A DNA stretch of 10,035 bases, taken from contig URTC01000036.1 of the NCBI GenBank assembly GCA_900550765.1, positions 1 through 10,035 on the forward strand, in the 5' to 3' direction. Every line of letters begins with the position of its first letter. Within the stretch, counting starts at the first letter, position 1. This stretch comes from an uncultured Clostridia bacterium. Lineage in GTDB: Bacteria > Bacillota > Clostridia > Christensenellales > QALW01. The notes beneath the pieces are model-generated. The model was not told the DNA's origin, searched no databases, and was given only the letters and a program-made list of their open reading frames with translations. Positions 2,299-9,737 of this stretch are shown one piece after another. The translations under genes were made by a program, and so were the position numbers.

Positions 2299-2785
2299 TT
2301 TTCTTACTCCTTAAAATTTCAAATATGGCAATTACAGTATGTACCATATTGGTACGCAATATACATTCGCCTAAAAAATCAAATTCTTTTTTATCAAAAA
2401 CAGGATTAATATCCAGCTTATACTCCTGATTTTTAGAAAGATTCGCCACTGCAGGCGCCAGAAATCCAAAAACCTGTCCGCTGATAATTGCTGTAGATGC
2501 AGCATCACCCGTACCGATATGAGAATTCAAAATAAGTTTTTTTATTTTTATATGTTTTCTGAACGCTCTGAAAATCCGTGCTTTACTGTATTTGCTTTTT
2601 TTGCCTGAAAAGAAAGATGCTATAACGTTTTTTACAGTTATGCTTTTTTGAAACAGCTTAATCGGAATCAAGCCCAAAAACATAAAATCTGCCTGCAGGT
2701 TAACAGCATCGTTTTTCGTGTCTGCCGCTATCCTGAATGTAAAAGGCAGCAGCAAAACAACAATGAAAAGCAACAAATAAAGCAC
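2279..2785 (-). CDS. DUF2953 family protein (YtfI-like), partner of GerW
   Basis: A 168-residue protein with one N-terminal hydrophobic segment (residues 2-17) and a body whose SHIGTGDAASTAI stretch (residues 88-100) is the family hallmark of DUF2953/YtfI. The C-terminal half carries the usual short beta-rich pattern (LDINPVFDKKEFDFLGE). Biochemical function is unknown; the family is usually encoded beside gerW in endospore formers, and that is the case here with a 20-nt overlap. The start is GTG at 2785, chosen because GAGGTGA lies 7 nt upstream and the hydrophobic segment begins at once. The start codon and ribosome binding site sit in a long hairpin (separate entry), so translation may be restrained by RNA structure. 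It is slightly short for the family at the N-terminus but otherwise intact. Confidence 0.85.
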   Translation of the reverse strand: MLYLLLFIVVLLLPFTFRIAADTKNDAVNLQADFMFLGLIPIKLFQKSITVKNVIASFFSGKKSKYSKARIFRAFRKHIKIKKLILNSHIGTGDAASTAIISGQVFGFLAPAVANLSKNQEYKLDINPVFDKKEFDFLGECILRTNMVHTVIAIFEILRSKKNGKASY

Positions 2786-2815
2786 AGACTTTCACCTCAT
2801 TAAAAGTCTGTGCTT
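2780..2815 (-). promoter_or_regulatory. 13-bp perfect hairpin holding the RBS (loop) and GTG start (stem) of the DUF2953 gene
   Basis: Positions 2780-2792 (AAGCACAGACTTT) and 2803-2815 are perfect inverted repeats separated by 10 nt. In the minus-strand RNA the GAGGTG of the DUF2953 gene starts in the loop and the GUG start codon is paired in the 3' arm. The structure lies 57 nt past the eamA stop, and a T-rich but interrupted tract (TTATTTGTTGCTTTT) follows it. It could therefore also serve as a weak terminator for the upstream operon. The inverted repeat is seen directly; either function is inferred. Confidence 0.7.
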
Positions 2816-2871: not shown

Positions 2872-3777
2872 TTATAAATTTAAAATGACCATTCCTACAA
2901 ACGCAATCACAGTACCTGCAATGCTTCTGGCATTAACCCGCTCTTTAAAAGCAATAGCGGACATTACCGTTGAACAAACCAGTGACAGTCCCTGCACCAT
3001 CGGAAAAAGTACGGAAGCCTCCAGTTCTGCAGCGGCAGCTGTCTGAAAAAAAGAATTGAGGAACAGAAAAATTGACATCAACACAATAATAAGATAAATT
3101 TTAGGTGTAACCGCCTGAGAATCCTCGGGCTTTTTTTCCGTCTTACTAAAATTTTTTATCATCAAAAAAACAAGCAGCAGTGTTATTGAGGCAAATACAT
3201 ACCCATAAAAATTAAACGCAGCATTGATATCGCCTGTTTCGGCCGCTGATCTGCTGAACATTTTTTGAGCAAGCCCGCTGAGGCCGTTGGAAAATCCGCA
3301 CACAAGCAGAATGGCAATGCCTTTCACGGTCAGCTTTCCTTTAATGGAATTGCTGTAGCCGCACATCAAATAGACAGCGGCACATAAAATCAGCACTCCG
3401 ATAATCTGATGGACGGAAGGTATTTCCCCAAACAAAATCGCTGACCCGATGATCGGAACAACCGTACCTAATACCAGAAAAATATCCAGCATAACATAGG
3501 CGCTGTATTGTACAGCAAAAAGCCAGGATACCGCCATTGCGGCCGTTCCGATTCCGTAAAGGAGCGAAAGCCCGACGGTCGGCGTATTAATAACAAGTCC
3601 CCCGAATCCGCTCTGTACCGTACAAAGCAAAAAGCCGATCACAACACAGACCGTCATCCGAAGAAGGTTGTAGAATGCTGCTTGTCTGAGCGTTGAAGTC
3701 CTCCCGCTGAGTTTTTTAGCTAAAAAGCCTTTTGATACCCCGGAAAATACAGCGATAACTACATAAAGATATCCCAT
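2872..3777 (-). CDS. EamA/DMT superfamily transporter
   Basis: A 301-residue, very hydrophobic protein of about ten membrane segments arranged as two repeats, the standard length and fold of the drug/metabolite transporter (EamA) family. The first repeat ends with VVPIIGSAILFGE (about residues 105-118) and the second with LFPMVQGLSLVCSTV and FKERVNARSIAGTVIAFVG, both typical positions of the conserved Pro and the (F/L)xE box. A charged central loop (residues about 208-226, KNFSKTEKKPEDSQ) separates the halves. Members move small metabolites across the cytoplasmic membrane by proton exchange or uniport; substrates cannot be read from sequence. The ATG at 3777 has AAGGTGG 6 nt upstream and lies 18 nt after the GH36-like gene, so it is the last gene of the glycyl radical enzyme operon. 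By context it probably imports the pathway substrate or exports a product. Confidence 0.88.
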   Translation of the reverse strand: MGYLYVVIAVFSGVSKGFLAKKLSGRTSTLRQAAFYNLLRMTVCVVIGFLLCTVQSGFGGLVINTPTVGLSLLYGIGTAAMAVSWLFAVQYSAYVMLDIFLVLGTVVPIIGSAILFGEIPSVHQIIGVLILCAAVYLMCGYSNSIKGKLTVKGIAILLVCGFSNGLSGLAQKMFSRSAAETGDINAAFNFYGYVFASITLLLVFLMIKNFSKTEKKPEDSQAVTPKIYLIIVLMSIFLFLNSFFQTAAAAELEASVLFPMVQGLSLVCSTVMSAIAFKERVNARSIAGTVIAFVGMVILNL

Positions 3778-3795
3778 GGAAGTCCACCTTTGCTG

Positions 3796-5874
3796 CTATT
3801 TTAAGATCTCATTTGCCTGTACTTTTTTAACATAAATATTCTCCCGCATTTTTTCAAAACCCGAAAGCGGCGTTTCACTGTATACAGCAAAAGTCCCCTG
3901 ATCCAGAACCAGGACACCTTCTATGATATTGCGAAAGGTTGCCGGCAACATAAACTTCTCCATCAATCCAAGCTCTGCCCTGCCCTCTTTGATTGGAACC
4001 AGCAAAAACAAACGAAAATCATCGTAATTTTCAAGAACGATCTTGAATTTTTCTCCTTTTTCTAAAACACGTGCTTCCTGGCGGAACCAGTCATACAGAC
4101 AATACCGACTCCGTCTAAGTGCATTAACATCCCGGGAAGAGATCTCTCCCCGAACGGGCTTTTCCTCCTTATTGAGATTGAATACCGCAAGAACACCGCA
4201 ATCCCTGATCGTATTTAAGACCTTAAAAATATTTCCGTTTGTCTCACAATCCTCAAACAAACATTCCTGACAGGGCAAAGCCGGATTTTCCAACCGAATA
4301 ATTCTGCCATCGGAAAATACCGTGGGCATGATCACCTCTTTTACACTTCTGCCCAGCTCATCGGACATATAGATCGGACCGCCGCTCATGCTGCGCAGCA
4401 CAGCATTCTTTTTTGCCTGTGCATCATCAGACCACCACATATCCCAATCACCAGTATAGACCGTTCCCTGAAAAAAAGCATTATAGCTGCATTGAAGCAG
4501 ATGCTGGATAAACCAGCTCCGGTTCTCTGGTTTAAAATCGCCGCTGAAACGATTGACATTGCTGTAGGTTCTGTTCCAAAAATTTTCTACCGGCATGACC
4601 ATGCTGTTAATCAATGCGACGTCATAATATTTTTTTGCTGTTTGTTCTATTGCGCGATGAAGATTTTTTGAACAAACGCCAATGGAGCCCTTACGGTAAG
4701 AAAACCGTTCTGTAGAGCCCTGATTATCCACTTTGGCAAAATCGATACTACAATCTTTATAGAAGGCATGTTGAGCATCATAATATTTTTCGATTTTCCT
4801 CTTTTCAAAGCTATGCATATAACGCGAGCCATCAGGCCAAAGACCCGGAATGGTATATTCCAATAGGTCCCCATGCGTTTTTGCCAGGGGCCCGTTTGGA
4901 TCGATCCCCCACCAATAGCCGCTGGTCGGATGCCATATCCCCACTGCAAGCCGGTATTGCTCCTTCAGCTTTTTTACGGCACCTTTTAATCCATTCGGAA
5001 AACGTTCGGGCGCAGCCTCCCAGCTGTTAAGCTCACGCGAATGCATTGTTTTTAAATCATTGCACGGAACATCTCCCCACATATCATCCAAGATGATCCA
5101 TCGCACCGGAATATCTTTTTCTTTAAATTCCTGCGCTTTATCCAACAGATTCTGCTCAGTAACATCCATATGAAAGGCATCCCAACTGCACCACCCGAGA
5201 TACTCAAATATTTCAGGATATTTTTTTGCCTTTCTAAGCTTACCGCGCTTTTTCATCTGCTTCAATCCAAAATCCACAACCAATTCAGGCAAAGCATACA
5301 CATCGTTTCCAATACCGCCGATAAAAATATATTCATCGATCTGATCCTGCACCGTATTGGAATGTGCGATCAAAGAAGCCCTCCTTCCAAAAGGAAACAG
5401 CTCCGTTTTAAAATCCTTATCGCAAACGGTCATAAAGAGCTCATATAAACCGCCCCTATCAAAAACCAGCGCCTGCGTACGCTCTTTCATTTCGCTGATC
5501 TTCCTTCCGATAAAAGGACGCTGCCAAAACATGCAGTTCATAAATGCATCAATATACTTTCCCTCATGCGGCATTCCGAAATCAATGCCTATCCCTTTAA
5601 AATCCTGCAAATGAGAACCGCGTCCATACGTGCCGGAAGGGTCATACCTGCCGGTTGCTTTTAACGCAAAGCAGCCGCCCCGCTCAATCAATGTGAGCAT
5701 AAGTACCGCCGTTTTATCCCGGCTTTCAAACCGCACCTCTTTTTCACCGGCCTCGACCACTGCCAAATCGATGCGGCTGCCTAAGGTAGAATTCATCCAA
5801 ACACTTAAAGTAGAGAGCACCTCGATATCATTAAAATAAACGGAAATATCCTCTTTGTTTTTAAATTTGTACAT
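3796..5874 (-). CDS. Raffinose synthase/alpha-galactosidase-like protein (GH36-type, Sip1-related)
   Basis: A 692-residue protein with no signal peptide, hence probably cytosolic. An N-terminal beta-rich region (about 1-210) leads into a TIM barrel of the raffinose synthase/seed imbibition protein family. Visible blocks are LGWCSWDAFHMDV (226-238), ILDDMW (261-266), GIWHPTSGYWWG (312-323), FAKVDNQ with the likely nucleophile Asp383, NRFSGDF with the likely acid/base Asp446, and GDWDMWWSDDA (475-485) followed by SGGPIYMSDELG. A C-terminal beta domain follows. The family includes plant galactosyltransferases and bacterial alpha-galactosidases. The usual S-D-D-F is S-G-D-F here, so activity or specificity may differ. 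The ATG at 5874 is preferred over one 45 nt upstream because GAGGAG lies 6 nt before it and the gene then starts 10 nt after the activase stop. Sitting between a radical SAM activase and a permease suggests it processes a galactoside or related glycoside feeding the radical enzyme. Confidence 0.85.
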   Translation of the reverse strand: MYKFKNKEDISVYFNDIEVLSTLSVWMNSTLGSRIDLAVVEAGEKEVRFESRDKTAVLMLTLIERGGCFALKATGRYDPSGTYGRGSHLQDFKGIGIDFGMPHEGKYIDAFMNCMFWQRPFIGRKISEMKERTQALVFDRGGLYELFMTVCDKDFKTELFPFGRRASLIAHSNTVQDQIDEYIFIGGIGNDVYALPELVVDFGLKQMKKRGKLRKAKKYPEIFEYLGWCSWDAFHMDVTEQNLLDKAQEFKEKDIPVRWIILDDMWGDVPCNDLKTMHSRELNSWEAAPERFPNGLKGAVKKLKEQYRLAVGIWHPTSGYWWGIDPNGPLAKTHGDLLEYTIPGLWPDGSRYMHSFEKRKIEKYYDAQHAFYKDCSIDFAKVDNQGSTERFSYRKGSIGVCSKNLHRAIEQTAKKYYDVALINSMVMPVENFWNRTYSNVNRFSGDFKPENRSWFIQHLLQCSYNAFFQGTVYTGDWDMWWSDDAQAKKNAVLRSMSGGPIYMSDELGRSVKEVIMPTVFSDGRIIRLENPALPCQECLFEDCETNGNIFKVLNTIRDCGVLAVFNLNKEEKPVRGEISSRDVNALRRSRYCLYDWFRQEARVLEKGEKFKIVLENYDDFRLFLLVPIKEGRAELGLMEKFMLPATFRNIIEGVLVLDQGTFAVYSETPLSGFEKMRENIYVKKVQANEILK

Positions 5875-5884
5875 AATTTTCTCC

Positions 5885-6718
5885 TCAATATGCAATACAC
5901 AAAATATTTCTCTCAGCAAAAGCAGATACGTCCTTATTTACCGCCTGCGTTTCATCAAAACATGGCAGGTACGATCTGCCTACGGTTCTATATTTTGCAC
6001 CCGTCATTCTATTATAGGGAATCAGTTCCACTGTTATCCTGTCCTTTGCCGGAGCAAGAAATTCTGCTATCCCGCTAAAATTCTCTTCGGTATCAGTCAG
6101 TCCGGGAATCAACGGCACACGTACGGTAAAATTCTTCCTGCTCTCCATTAACTGCCGTACATTTTGAAGGATCAATTCATTCCCTTGTCCGGTAAATTGG
6201 CGATGTTTGCGCGTTTGAATATGCTTGATATCAATAAAGATATCATTAATTTTTGCAATTGCCTGCTGAAAAACTCTGCCAGGAACGAACCCGCAGGTTT
6301 CTATCGCGGTAGGAAGTCCTGAAAGATACCGCAATGTTTCCCAAATAAAATCCGCCTGTTCCAGCGGCTCTCCTCCGGAAAACGTAACGCCGCCATATTT
6401 CAGAAAAGACTCATTTTTTCTTAATTGCGCCGCCAGCGCTTCCGGGGAATACTCCCGGCCGATCTTCCGCACATAATCGCCGGGGCATCTTTTCAAACAC
6501 ACGCCGAGCCCCCGGCATTCCTCATGCGCACATTTCTGCCGGCAAAGTCCGCAGCCGGTACATTTTCCGGTATTTCTGGCTACTTCAATCTCCGAAGAGA
6601 TTCCCTCAGGATTATGACACCAAAGGCAATGCAGCGGACAGCCTTTTAAAAATACCGTCGTACGCATCCCCCTGCCGTCATGAAGTCCGAATTCCTTAAT
6701 ATCAAATATAAGTCCCAC
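5885..6718 (-). CDS. Glycyl radical enzyme activating enzyme (radical SAM)
   Basis: A 277-residue radical SAM protein that would install the glycyl radical on the adjacent enzyme by cleaving S-adenosylmethionine. The CxxxCxxC cluster motif is CPLHCLWC (Cys27, Cys31, Cys34). SGGEP (114-118) binds SAM and an IDIK box (Asp163, Lys165) is typical of activases. Between the cluster and SGGEP sits a ferredoxin-like insert with Cys53, 56, 59, 63, 68, 74 and 78, which is seven cysteines in 26 residues; most such inserts have two CxxCxxCxxxC sets, so this one looks compacted. The start is GTG at 6718. Its G is also the last base of the TAG stop of the upstream enzyme gene (1-nt overlap), indicating translational coupling; an AGGA lies about 12 nt upstream. 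The conserved opening GLIFDIKEFGLHDGRGMRT supports this start. Confidence 0.93.
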   Translation of the reverse strand: MGLIFDIKEFGLHDGRGMRTTVFLKGCPLHCLWCHNPEGISSEIEVARNTGKCTGCGLCRQKCAHEECRGLGVCLKRCPGDYVRKIGREYSPEALAAQLRKNESFLKYGGVTFSGGEPLEQADFIWETLRYLSGLPTAIETCGFVPGRVFQQAIAKINDIFIDIKHIQTRKHRQFTGQGNELILQNVRQLMESRKNFTVRVPLIPGLTDTEENFSGIAEFLAPAKDRITVELIPYNRMTGAKYRTVGRSYLPCFDETQAVNKDVSAFAERNILCIAY

Positions 6719-8778
6719 TATTCGCTGAATTCCTGCCTTGCAATCAAATGATCTTGATATTCTTTATCCAGTTCCACAAAATAGGCGCTCCAGCCCCAAA
6801 TACGAACGATCATATTCCTATAGTTTTCCGGATGCTTCTGCGCATCCAGCATACGTTCCCGATTAATGGAATTGAGCTGAAGCTGATGCCCCCCTTTATC
6901 GATATACGCTTTAACCAGCGCTGCTACCTGCTCGATCCCCTCCTCGGTATTGAATACAGTAGAATGAAATTCCATCGTCAGCGGTCCGCCGTTGATCGCC
7001 CGCTGTACAGGGCACTTAGTAAAGGACTGGATAACCGAAAACGGTCCTTTTGATTTTACATACAGGCTTGGAGAAAAATTGGTGCCAAAAGGTTCTCCCT
7101 TGCGCCGCCCGTCAGGAGACGCCTCCAGTTCATTGGCATGCCACAAAAAAAACATGGCAGAGCCCGTACCGGCGCGGTAGATTCCTCCGCGTTCATTTTT
7201 CCTGCCCTCCAGGCTGTCCGCAAACCATCCCATTAACGCAGCGGCAATAGCATCCACGCTGTCAATGTTATCGCCCATTTTCGGCGTTTCATAGCGGCAG
7301 GCATGCAAAAGCTCCTCGTAACCGGAAAAATCCTTTTTTATGGCTTCTATCATTTGTACGGCAGTAACCGTCTTTTTTTCAAACACATGTATGCGAACCG
7401 CTTCCAGGGAATCAGCCGCAGTAGCAAGACCAGTACCGTGAATTCCAAAATTATTATAGCGGCCTCCCCTTGAGATATCGCGTGCATTTTGAATACAATC
7501 GTCCATTAAAACCGAATAAAACGGTGCGGGAACTACGTAAAGATCATGAATATCCGCGCAGATGCTTTCTGCCTGGGCATAAATCTCCTGCCTGACCTGC
7601 TCCAGCAATTCCTCAAAGCTGTTTACTTTTTCCAAATTCTGCAGCAACACATTCTGTACGGCCTTCGGATAGGACAGCGCGCCGATATTAGGAATATCCA
7701 TCGCACATCCGGCGGTAATAAATTCCCAACAGGCGGCAACCGAATAATTCCGTGCCGCTCTCTCATCATACCCCAGTGCCATCAGGCCCGGAATCACAAT
7801 GTCGTCATTAGAATACTGCGGAAATCCCAAGCCCGCTTTTGTAAGGCGCGTCCCTTCAACATATCGCTCAAACGGCGTATCCGAGGAAACCCGCAGATTG
7901 ATTTTAGGATCAATAAGCTTCAGCTCGCAGCTGGCGCGCAGGCACATTTCCGAAAGAAGATTATAGGCATCCCTGCCTTCTTCATCCACACCGCCCAGCA
8001 TCATGGACTGACCATTATCCCCCAGCTGCACGCCCACATATGTATCATTATCCCAGTTAAAGCTTAAAAAGAATTCCTCAAGCAGGCTCTCTGCCTGCTC
8101 TCTGGTAAGGATCCCAGCCTCCATATCTCTTTTTATATAAGGATACGCAAACTGGTCGAATCGGCCTATCGTATTGTGATATTCCCCCTCAGCCCAAAGG
8201 GTGTAATGCAGTACACGGAAGAACTGCAGCATCTCTAAAAACGAAGTTGCCCCTTTATGCGGAATATTTGTAAATACAGCGGCAATGTCCATCCGTCCCA
8301 GCTCCTCAGCCTCTATACGGTACCGATCACAAAGGCAAAATACTGCATCGATCGTGCGAATAACCGCCTCTAAAAACATTTTCCCCTCGGTATCGCCTTC
8401 TTTGCAGCACTGCTCAAAACGCTTTACCGCTTCTGCCCGCCGCACATCCAAACCGCAGGCTATCGTAGAACCATAATCCGCGCAAAGATTGGATACATAC
8501 CCCAGCTCATGCACAAAATGTGTATTTGTAATATCCGCCCATTCTTCTTCACTGAAGATACTGGGCACATCTATTACCGTGCGAAGGAACACGATCCGCT
8601 GTTTTTTTAAAATGACCGGTTCCTCCTGGGCAAACACGTCCTCTAATCGCATAGCCATACGCATGACCGGTGCAATGGAAGGATTTGTAAAATCAGACGC
8701 CCGTGCTACATCAAAGGGACGTCTAAAGCCATGATGTGCCCCTGAAAGCACCTGATCATATAATTCCTGATGATACAT
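6718..8778 (-). CDS. Glycyl radical enzyme of the pyruvate formate-lyase superfamily, substrate unknown
   Basis: A 686-residue GRE, short for the family (usually about 760-850). Family blocks in order: GRFDQFAYPYIKRDMEAG (205-222), LGFPQYSNDDIVIPGL, the thiyl cysteine in VAACWEF (Cys350, with Glu352), ATAADSLEAVRIHVF, SPDGRRKGEPFGTNFSPS (554-571), LQLNSINRERM, and the glycyl radical loop VRIWGWSAYFVEL (Gly662). The Cys-x-Glu pair resembles dehydratases, lyases and decarboxylases rather than pyruvate formate-lyase, which has Cys-Cys. The intervening Trp and the Trp-Gly-Trp radical loop, instead of the usual RVxGY, do not match any characterised subclass that I can name. There is no N-terminal microcompartment-targeting extension. 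The ATG at 8778 is chosen over one 57 nt upstream because GGAGG lies 7 nt before it and the upstream ATG would precede the apparent transcription start. It is first gene of a four-gene operon with its own activase. Confidence 0.92.
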   Translation of the reverse strand: MYHQELYDQVLSGAHHGFRRPFDVARASDFTNPSIAPVMRMAMRLEDVFAQEEPVILKKQRIVFLRTVIDVPSIFSEEEWADITNTHFVHELGYVSNLCADYGSTIACGLDVRRAEAVKRFEQCCKEGDTEGKMFLEAVIRTIDAVFCLCDRYRIEAEELGRMDIAAVFTNIPHKGATSFLEMLQFFRVLHYTLWAEGEYHNTIGRFDQFAYPYIKRDMEAGILTREQAESLLEEFFLSFNWDNDTYVGVQLGDNGQSMMLGGVDEEGRDAYNLLSEMCLRASCELKLIDPKINLRVSSDTPFERYVEGTRLTKAGLGFPQYSNDDIVIPGLMALGYDERAARNYSVAACWEFITAGCAMDIPNIGALSYPKAVQNVLLQNLEKVNSFEELLEQVRQEIYAQAESICADIHDLYVVPAPFYSVLMDDCIQNARDISRGGRYNNFGIHGTGLATAADSLEAVRIHVFEKKTVTAVQMIEAIKKDFSGYEELLHACRYETPKMGDNIDSVDAIAAALMGWFADSLEGRKNERGGIYRAGTGSAMFFLWHANELEASPDGRRKGEPFGTNFSPSLYVKSKGPFSVIQSFTKCPVQRAINGGPLTMEFHSTVFNTEEGIEQVAALVKAYIDKGGHQLQLNSINRERMLDAQKHPENYRNMIVRIWGWSAYFVELDKEYQDHLIARQEFSE

Positions 8779-8806
8779 AAATTTTCCTCCATTTTCAATA
8801 CGCTCT

Positions 8807-8835
8807 ATTATAGCATTAATAAAAACAGATTGCAA
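8807..8835 (-). promoter_or_regulatory. Sigma-A promoter of the glycyl radical enzyme operon
   Basis: The minus strand reads TTGCAA (8830-8835), a 17-nt spacer and TATAAT (8807-8812), with TG one base before the -10 box (extended -10). Transcription would start near 8800, giving a leader of only about 22 nt that contains the GGAGG ribosome binding site. Any regulation would thus act at or upstream of the promoter rather than through a leader RNA. Confidence 0.82.
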
Positions 8836-9062: not shown

Positions 9063-9737
9063 TTACGCAGCCGGTGCTTCGGTAACTTCCTCTGTAGGTT
9101 CGGGAGTAGCAATTCTATTCTGGAAATCTTCAAACTTATATCCATCCTGGCCGATAACGCCGAATTTCAACTCCTGAACTTCCATTTTGATAGCATCTTT
9201 TCCTTCTCTGCTATACTTTAAGCAAACATCGTAATCCGCATTAACATACATATTGATCTCCATGGGACCGCTCTTATAATAGTAATGGGTCGTTTGCAGA
9301 TCTGCAACTGTTTCCTCTCCCTGATTATCCATTTCAGCACCGCTTGCTTCATACTGCTTATGGGCACTGAAGGTTCCAAATACAGAAGTCTGTGAAGAAA
9401 CACCAAAGCTTGAAGTACCAGCTACGTTAAAGGACTCTCCGCCATCCTGACTGATAAGATACAGTCCGCTGTAGCCTACCTCAATATAGTTGGTAGTTTT
9501 TTCCTGAGTAACCATGTTCCCATTTTCATCCGGCTCCGTTACGGTCTGTGTTGCAGAAAATTTCAGGAAATAATTAGAAAGTTCCGTATCGCTCAAACCG
9601 CTGGTGGTATCCTTATACACCGGGGGAACTGTAGGTGTAACTTCTACTCCGTCACCTTCGCCATTATTGCAGGCAACCAGCGAAAACGCCATAGCACCTA
9701 CAAGAAGCATAACGAACAATTTTTTTAAATTTTTCAT
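9063..9737 (-). CDS. Lipoprotein of unknown function
   Basis: A 224-residue secreted lipoprotein. A charged MKNLKK start, a hydrophobic core and the lipobox LVAC (residues 20-23) predict cleavage before Cys23 and membrane anchoring on the outer face. A Thr/Pro linker (VTPTVPPVY) leads to a body of about 160 residues rich in Thr, Ser, Tyr and Gly with alternating beta-strand-like pattern (TTNYIEVGYSGLYLI, THYYYKSGPMEINMYV). The last 15 residues are a Pro/Glu/Thr tail (ATPEPTEEVTEAPAA). I recognise no family or catalytic motif. The ATG at 9737 has AGGAGG 7 nt upstream. It forms a single-gene unit with a perfect-consensus promoter and a strong terminator, so it may be abundantly expressed. No functional link to the downstream GRE operon is evident. 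Confidence 0.85.
   Translation of the reverse strand: MKNLKKLFVMLLVGAMAFSLVACNNGEGDGVEVTPTVPPVYKDTTSGLSDTELSNYFLKFSATQTVTEPDENGNMVTQEKTTNYIEVGYSGLYLISQDGGESFNVAGTSSFGVSSQTSVFGTFSAHKQYEASGAEMDNQGEETVADLQTTHYYYKSGPMEINMYVNADYDVCLKYSREGKDAIKMEVQELKFGVIGQDGYKFEDFQNRIATPEPTEEVTEAPAA

Follow-up and report, generated by a model that had tools for sequence, protein, structure and literature searches.

Glycyl radical enzymes (GREs) carry out signature chemistry of anaerobic life, and newly characterised classes of these enzymes have opened up pathways in gut and sediment. Among solved structures, the top profile matches of the GRE described here are B12-independent glycerol dehydratase (PDB: 1r8w) and the GRE 1,2-propanediol dehydratase (PDB: 5i2g), which have the same overall fold. 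YbiW and PflD are 1,5-anhydroglucitol/anhydromannitol 6-phosphate lyases, and their published route, as described in PMC12441222, begins with a PTS. Pyruvate formate-lyase has an adjacent Cys-Cys pair, C418/C419 (PMC12338860). The gene cassette examined here also encodes a glycoside hydrolase of family GH36, whose fold is matched, at 23% sequence identity, by the Arabidopsis alkaline α-galactosidase/raffinose synthase-type enzymes (PDB: 7exf, 7exg, 7exh and 7exj). Unlike these plant proteins, it is bacterial and adjoins a GRE and its activase.

Organization of the locus

The window, i.e. the whole stretch of 10,035 nucleotides that was analysed, comes from an uncultured Clostridia bacterium of gut type. 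The original prediction placed on its minus strand a four-gene operon of a GRE, an activase, a GH36-like protein and an EamA permease; open reading frames and Pfam domains agree with this layout, and the spacings are as predicted. The GRE and activase genes overlap by one nucleotide (the TAG of the former and the GTG of the latter have base 6718 in common), followed by gaps of 10 nt between activase and GH36 (5875-5884) and of 18 nt between GH36 and EamA (3778-3795). Upstream lies a promoter-like site (8807..8835, minus strand) of the form TTGCAA-17-TATAAT, in which a TG precedes the second hexamer; it was identified by consensus match only. It is a plausible promoter of the operon, but the window contains 23 sites of this kind, which is not above chance (20.0, sd 4.9, in shuffled sequences). 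At the other end, downstream of EamA, a terminator-like hairpin of 15 pairs (2780..2815, minus strand) separates EamA from the DUF2953 gene and overlaps the start region of the latter. By-eye comparison reveals a resembling hairpin sequence in front of the DUF2953 gene in a relative, locus L001.

None of the eight window proteins scanned is an aldehyde or alcohol dehydrogenase or a microcompartment shell protein, as had been claimed, which sets the locus apart from those of the glycerol and propanediol dehydratases; nor is there a PTS protein or a kinase among the eight, a difference from the YbiW/PflD systems.

A subclass of glycyl radical enzymes and its activase

The GRE gene occupies positions 6718..8778 (minus strand) and encodes 686 amino acids. 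The start at TTG 8835 assumed earlier has to be abandoned: this codon lies in the first hexamer (-35 box) of the promoter-like site. The ATG at 8778 is preceded by a GGAGG site, as in most homologues, and the family alignment begins at about the same point. Membership in the GRE superfamily is indicated by matches over cut-off to PF02901 (308.9 bits) and PF01228 (78.5 bits), by family alignments and predicted fold, by the R-x-x-G-x-S loop and thiyl cysteine, and by the neighbouring activase. The predicted fold is of the dehydratase/lyase GRE type, with the glycyl loop of the model at pLDDT below 50.

The predicted thiyl radical site is Cys350 in the motif ACWE (7729..7731, minus strand), aligned to Cys433 of 1r8w and occupied by cysteine in all 99 related rows. 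The predicted glycyl radical site is Gly662 in the motif RIWGWS (6793..6795, minus strand), aligned to Gly763 of 1r8w; glycine is found in 98 of the 99 rows, the remaining row being cut off there. ACWE together with R-x-WGWS marks, at the level of sequence, a widespread and uncharacterised subclass, encoded in at least 525 stretches in one scan of a species-genome collection. The 80 best of these relatives make up our locus set, though relatives with 75-84% GRE identity exist outside it (the best within it has 67%). The set was found by two peptide patterns, one of them containing WGWS, so that the presence of WGWS in 79 of 79 rows is partly built in. In 20 rows from a genome search that were not chosen by pattern, ACWE occurs in every row and WGWS in 19, the other row being cut off; both motifs are also invariant in a 27-row family alignment.

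Comparison with the two dehydratases reveals a mixture of preserved and altered features. The thiyl cysteine, the glutamate of the C-x-E pair (C350-W351-E352, aligned to C433-V434-E435 of glycerol dehydratase), the equivalent of His281 and the glycyl position are all kept. In contrast, the window protein is about 100 residues shorter, has Trp in place of V434, and has IWGWS where the dehydratases have the VAGYS loop. Moreover, H164, S282 and D447, which we take to be substrate residues of glycerol and 1,2-propanediol dehydratases, are replaced by N97, N202 and N364, the first and last of which are found in 99 of 99 related rows and N202 in 78. With three pocket positions changed, a reaction other than dehydration is possible.

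The prediction of a short GRE is borne out, and its profile scores lie far below every NCBIfam equivalog cut-off for which there is a hit, among them PFL2/glycerol dehydratase (TIGR01774, 326 bits against a curated cut-off of 678.2), trans-4-hydroxyproline dehydratase (305.7 against 1100), CutC (228.9 against 1050), HpsG and HpfG (235.1 and 269.9, each against 1000), indoleacetate decarboxylase (185 against 1100) and hydroxyphenylacetate decarboxylase (182.4 against 1150).

The next gene (5885..6718, minus strand) starts with GTG and encodes a radical SAM protein of 277 amino acids, which scores 240.1 bits against the GRE activase profile TIGR02494 (cut-off 174.35) and matches PF04055 (radical SAM) and Fer4_12 in Pfam. 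Its translation contains the CxxxCxxC motif (CPLHCLWC) and a cysteine-rich ferredoxin-like insert, in agreement with the earlier view of a dedicated activase. An activase is found within 6 kb of the GRE in 68 of the 80 loci (best 80 of at least 525), as it is in the window.

The GH36 protein and its recurrent association with the GRE

The third gene (3796..5874, minus strand) encodes a protein of 692 amino acids with the raffinose synthase/alkaline α-galactosidase fold and a Raffinose_syn match (PF05691, 165.2 bits, cut-off 20). This bears out the GH36-like assignment made earlier, and the catalytic residues are kept. Asp383 (4726..4728, minus strand), the predicted nucleophile, aligns to the Asp that was changed to Ala in 7exg. 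Asp stands at this position in all 18 rows associated with a GRE, one of which is the window protein, and in 16 of 17 others. Asp446 (4537..4539, minus strand), which by analogy we take to be the acid/base, is Asp in all 18 and all 17, respectively. Fold, domain and residues argue for a plant-type α-galactosidase-like enzyme, the activity being predicted from these features. GH36 copies without a GRE keep identical catalytic residues, which thus say nothing of a GRE-linked function.

Co-occurrence of the two genes in other genomes was a check proposed with the original prediction, and the GRE-GH36 link proved to be genuine. We left out one locus (L078) in which no GRE frame was called, and found a GH36 gene of the window type within 6 kb of the GRE in 11 of the remaining 79 loci (best 80 of at least 525), where about 0.02 would be expected from 23 GH36 copies in 391 genomes at an assumed 2.4 Mb per genome. 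Full flanks are available in 38 of the 79 loci, and 11 is therefore a lower bound; in the other 68 loci no GH36 of this type lies within that distance. In seven of the 11 the GH36 gene directly follows the activase gene. Cultured hosts of the cassette include Acetatifactor muris (locus L053) and Ructibacterium gallinarum (L068). Open reading frames were called by a simple longest-frame method, by which genes may be missed or mis-started. Viewed from the GH36 side, in two unselected genome samples, a GRE lies within about 7 kb in nine of 26 places; the other 17 have no nearby GRE, and several of them are on short contigs, some below 5 kb. Apart from the GRE genes, no other gene appears around GH36 in more than four of 34 loci, 11 of which were selected for holding both genes, for which reason the GRE count in this set is not evidence.

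The association is scattered over the GRE tree, with at least eight forced changes, which suggests repeated gain or assembly, or loss, and not a single origin. The GH36 label requires 12 changes, against 15.1 with shuffled labels, and 6 of 500 shuffles are as low; the tree is a quick one, built from GRE frames of at least 600 amino acids, with 31 open forks and one duplicate pair (L068/L136).

As a separate observation, 14 of 120 listed GRE clusters may be co-located with listed GH36 clusters, a suggestive count obtained indirectly and by eye, and not read in DNA.

Among the titles and beginnings of abstracts listed from the open-licence literature, we found no description of a GRE clustered with a raffinose synthase-like enzyme, of the subclass, of its motif signature or of the GH36 cassette; nor was any open-licence literature found that joins raffinose synthase with glycyl radical.

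EamA as a lineage-specific addition

The last gene (2872..3777, minus strand) encodes an EamA/DMT permease of 301 amino acids, which resembles other members of this family in one EamA stretch, in the C-terminal half, that scores over the PF00892 cut-off (53.4 bits). Thirteen homologues at E≤1e-10 were found among 7996 candidates scored. The expected co-occurrence of EamA with the GRE was not observed: in the 80 GRE loci (best 80 of at least 525) BLAST detects no homologue at E≤1e-5 and no credible weaker match, in a search with one query protein that would miss a very divergent DMT permease. Locus L001, the nearest among those fetched (67% GRE identity), has the GRE-activase-GH36 genes followed by the same DUF2953-YtfJ-DacA block as the window, and at the site of EamA there are just 50 nt and the similar hairpin between GH36 and DUF2953. 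No EamA match occurs anywhere in the L001 genome, and distant matches elsewhere in the genome (27-29% identity) occur in three of nine genomes. On indirect grounds, EamA may also stand beside GH36 in one further lineage (P0242, 67%; with P0123). EamA is a lineage-specific addition and lies outside the conserved unit; of the two co-occurrences by which the original prediction was to be judged, that of GRE and GH36 survives and that with EamA fails. The four-gene operon is thus right for this window, while the conserved unit is the three-gene set GRE-activase-GH36.

Proposed pathway and its alternatives

Our main reading, to which we assign a probability of about 0.48, is that an imported α-galactoside is cut in the cytosol and that a sugar or polyol without phosphate then undergoes radical C-O elimination by the GRE. 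The α-galactoside, for example a raffinose-family sugar or a galactosyl-polyol such as galactinol, would be taken up by a transporter encoded outside the operon, and GH36 would release galactose and the aglycone. The activase would set the radical on Gly662; the GRE would pass it to Cys350, take hydrogen from a hydroxyl-bearing carbon of the substrate and eliminate the neighbouring C-O bond, by dehydration or ring opening, to give a deoxy-carbonyl product. We infer this elimination step because the Cys350/Glu352 pair is kept and the fold is that of the dehydratases and lyases; elimination or ring opening is our best guess of the reaction. Reduction or fermentation of the product would fall to enzymes that the operon does not encode, and EamA is probably the membrane transporter of a small product or substrate. 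Several points speak against this reading: the 68 GRE loci and 17 GH36 places described above where the partner gene was not seen nearby, the varied glycosidase genes next to other members of the subclass, the GH36 copies that have no GRE and yet keep the catalytic residues, the three altered pocket positions and the low pLDDT of the glycyl loop. In addition, the galT-like gene and GHMP kinase gene of the relative G001 suggest that galactose may be used there independently of the GRE.

Which part of the glycoside reaches the GRE is a matter on which several readings diverge. The GH36 enzyme may cut galactinol, galactosylglycerol or a galactosyl-cyclitol, with galactose going to the Leloir pathway and the GRE dehydrating the polyol or cyclitol. 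The glycerol and diol dehydratases at the top of the structural matches fit this, as does the galactinol complex 7exh among the GH36 fold matches. A search of nine genomes, two of them without the cassette, for one galT family gave galT_2 matches in four of the seven cassette genomes, over cut-off in one; in genome G001 the galT-like gene sits beside a GHMP kinase gene, both below their equivalog cut-offs. However, the other three cassette genomes have no galT_2 match, no polyol gene was recognised among recurrent neighbours labelled by eye, and the GRE relatives that adjoin arabinofuranosidases are not readily reconciled with a polyol aglycone. On balance we regard this version as unlikely.

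Slightly less favoured, and in our view likewise unlikely, is a reaction on the freed galactose or pentose, as the free pyranose, yielding an anhydro-ketose or deoxy-osone that serves as fermentation entry or electron sink. The neighbours of other subclass members speak for it. Ten neighbour proteins were scanned, chosen and not random, so that they show a theme and not its frequency; among them are two arabinofuranosidase-type proteins, GH127, GH94, a rhamnosidase-type protein and a sugar-porter transporter. Further neighbours are FGGY kinases, a PfkB kinase and, in one locus, an SDR and an AKR; aldose-epimerase-like proteins were recognised by eye. The theme is carbohydrate catabolism wider than galactosides alone, and with such varied glycosidases the substrate need not derive from a galactoside. 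Both radical loops also carry conserved Trp, which could stack on a sugar ring. Against this, some hosts may possess ordinary routes, and the loci do not all share any one downstream enzyme. Arabinose isomerase is also rare: AraA scores over cut-off in none of the seven cassette genomes and, across the order, in 47 of 396 genomes, three of which are among the 20 that are GRE-positive. With AraA rare in hosts and non-hosts alike, replacement of the arabinose isomerase route by the GRE is not indicated. LacI and AraC regulators were also labelled by eye among the neighbours.

We consider it improbable that the GRE opens the ring of a phosphosugar, with an anhydropolyol phosphate as its substrate, in the manner of YbiW/PflD: the window protein shows 22-25% identity, scores 259.1 bits against 1109 for the E. 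coli PflD-type equivalog (PRK09983, NF007437), and has no PTS protein or kinase beside it among the eight window proteins scanned. A pyruvate formate-lyase variant with an incidental GH36 neighbour, in keeping with the names 'pyruvate formate-lyase' or 'formate C-acetyltransferase' given to relatives where a source names them, is very improbable, since the GRE has A349-C350 at the cysteine pair, scores 77.3 bits against 994.2 for TIGR01255, and in G001 coexists with a separate true pyruvate formate-lyase (1173.2 bits) and is thus not that cell's enzyme of this kind.

Significance

The reaction class, that of GRE lyases and dehydratases, is already known; there is a fair chance that the substrate class is new. 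A broader generalisation, possible although tentative, is that the CWE/WGWS GREs form a new functional class that converts unphosphorylated sugars or cyclitols, freed by intracellular glycosidases, into deoxy-carbonyl products, with Trp at both radical loops as a sugar-binding innovation. Clostridia, Bacteroidales, Lentisphaerota and other anaerobes would then ferment plant sugars by a radical route that is widespread among them. The subclass is common, is called pyruvate formate-lyase where it has a name, and reaches no NCBIfam equivalog cut-off. The recurrent link to GH36 supplies a concrete substrate panel and makes the function of the GRE testable with two purified enzymes and the activase. 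Other gut bacteria likewise pair an oxygen-sensitive GRE with GH36, a recurrence that points to a mode of plant-sugar fermentation not yet described.

Features flanking the operon in the window

At the left end of the window, one open frame on the minus strand (144-1859) fuses parts of two products, DacA-like and LacZ-type. Its N-terminal ~95 residues correspond to the start of a D-Ala-D-Ala carboxypeptidase, with 60% identity to DacA of L001, the closest fetched relative of the window locus, and the remainder to a central portion of a LacZ-type GH2 beta-galactosidase; the junction lies at an IYLKKGE stretch common to both halves. This frame is likely an assembly misjoin, and the sequence left of ~1600 may therefore be foreign to this genome. 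Further in, a hairpin (2780-2815, minus strand) overlaps the region in which the DUF2953 gene starts, and a similar hairpin is present in L001; it could either terminate transcription or act as a translation switch on the sporulation genes. At the other end, a small predicted lipoprotein (9063-9737, minus strand; LVACN lipobox, judged by eye), for which no Pfam match was found, is preceded by a sigma-70-type site (12/12) at 9810-9782.

Gene neighbourhoods of related glycyl radical enzymes

In three loci from other genomes, a different GRE with its own activase is found upstream of the GRE-activase-GH36 cassette (L048:4947-7358, L053:7589-9889 and L068:7011-9017), adjoined by genes of Gfo/Idh type in L048 and L053 and of xylulokinase type in L068; one pathway with two radical steps is possible there. 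No activase was found in the 22-kb loci L019, L025 and L066 (Victivallales/Verrucomicrobia), where the GRE lies amid other genes, so activation may occur in trans. DUF4867 (PF16161 scored in L056; L017 assigned via the same BLAST cluster) is encoded near the GRE in both loci, along with kinases or a HAD phosphatase. Arabinofuranosidase-type, GH127 or rhamnosidase-type genes are located near same-subclass GREs of L005, L010, L012 and L074, and the CWE/WGWS subclass is therefore linked to several plant sugars.
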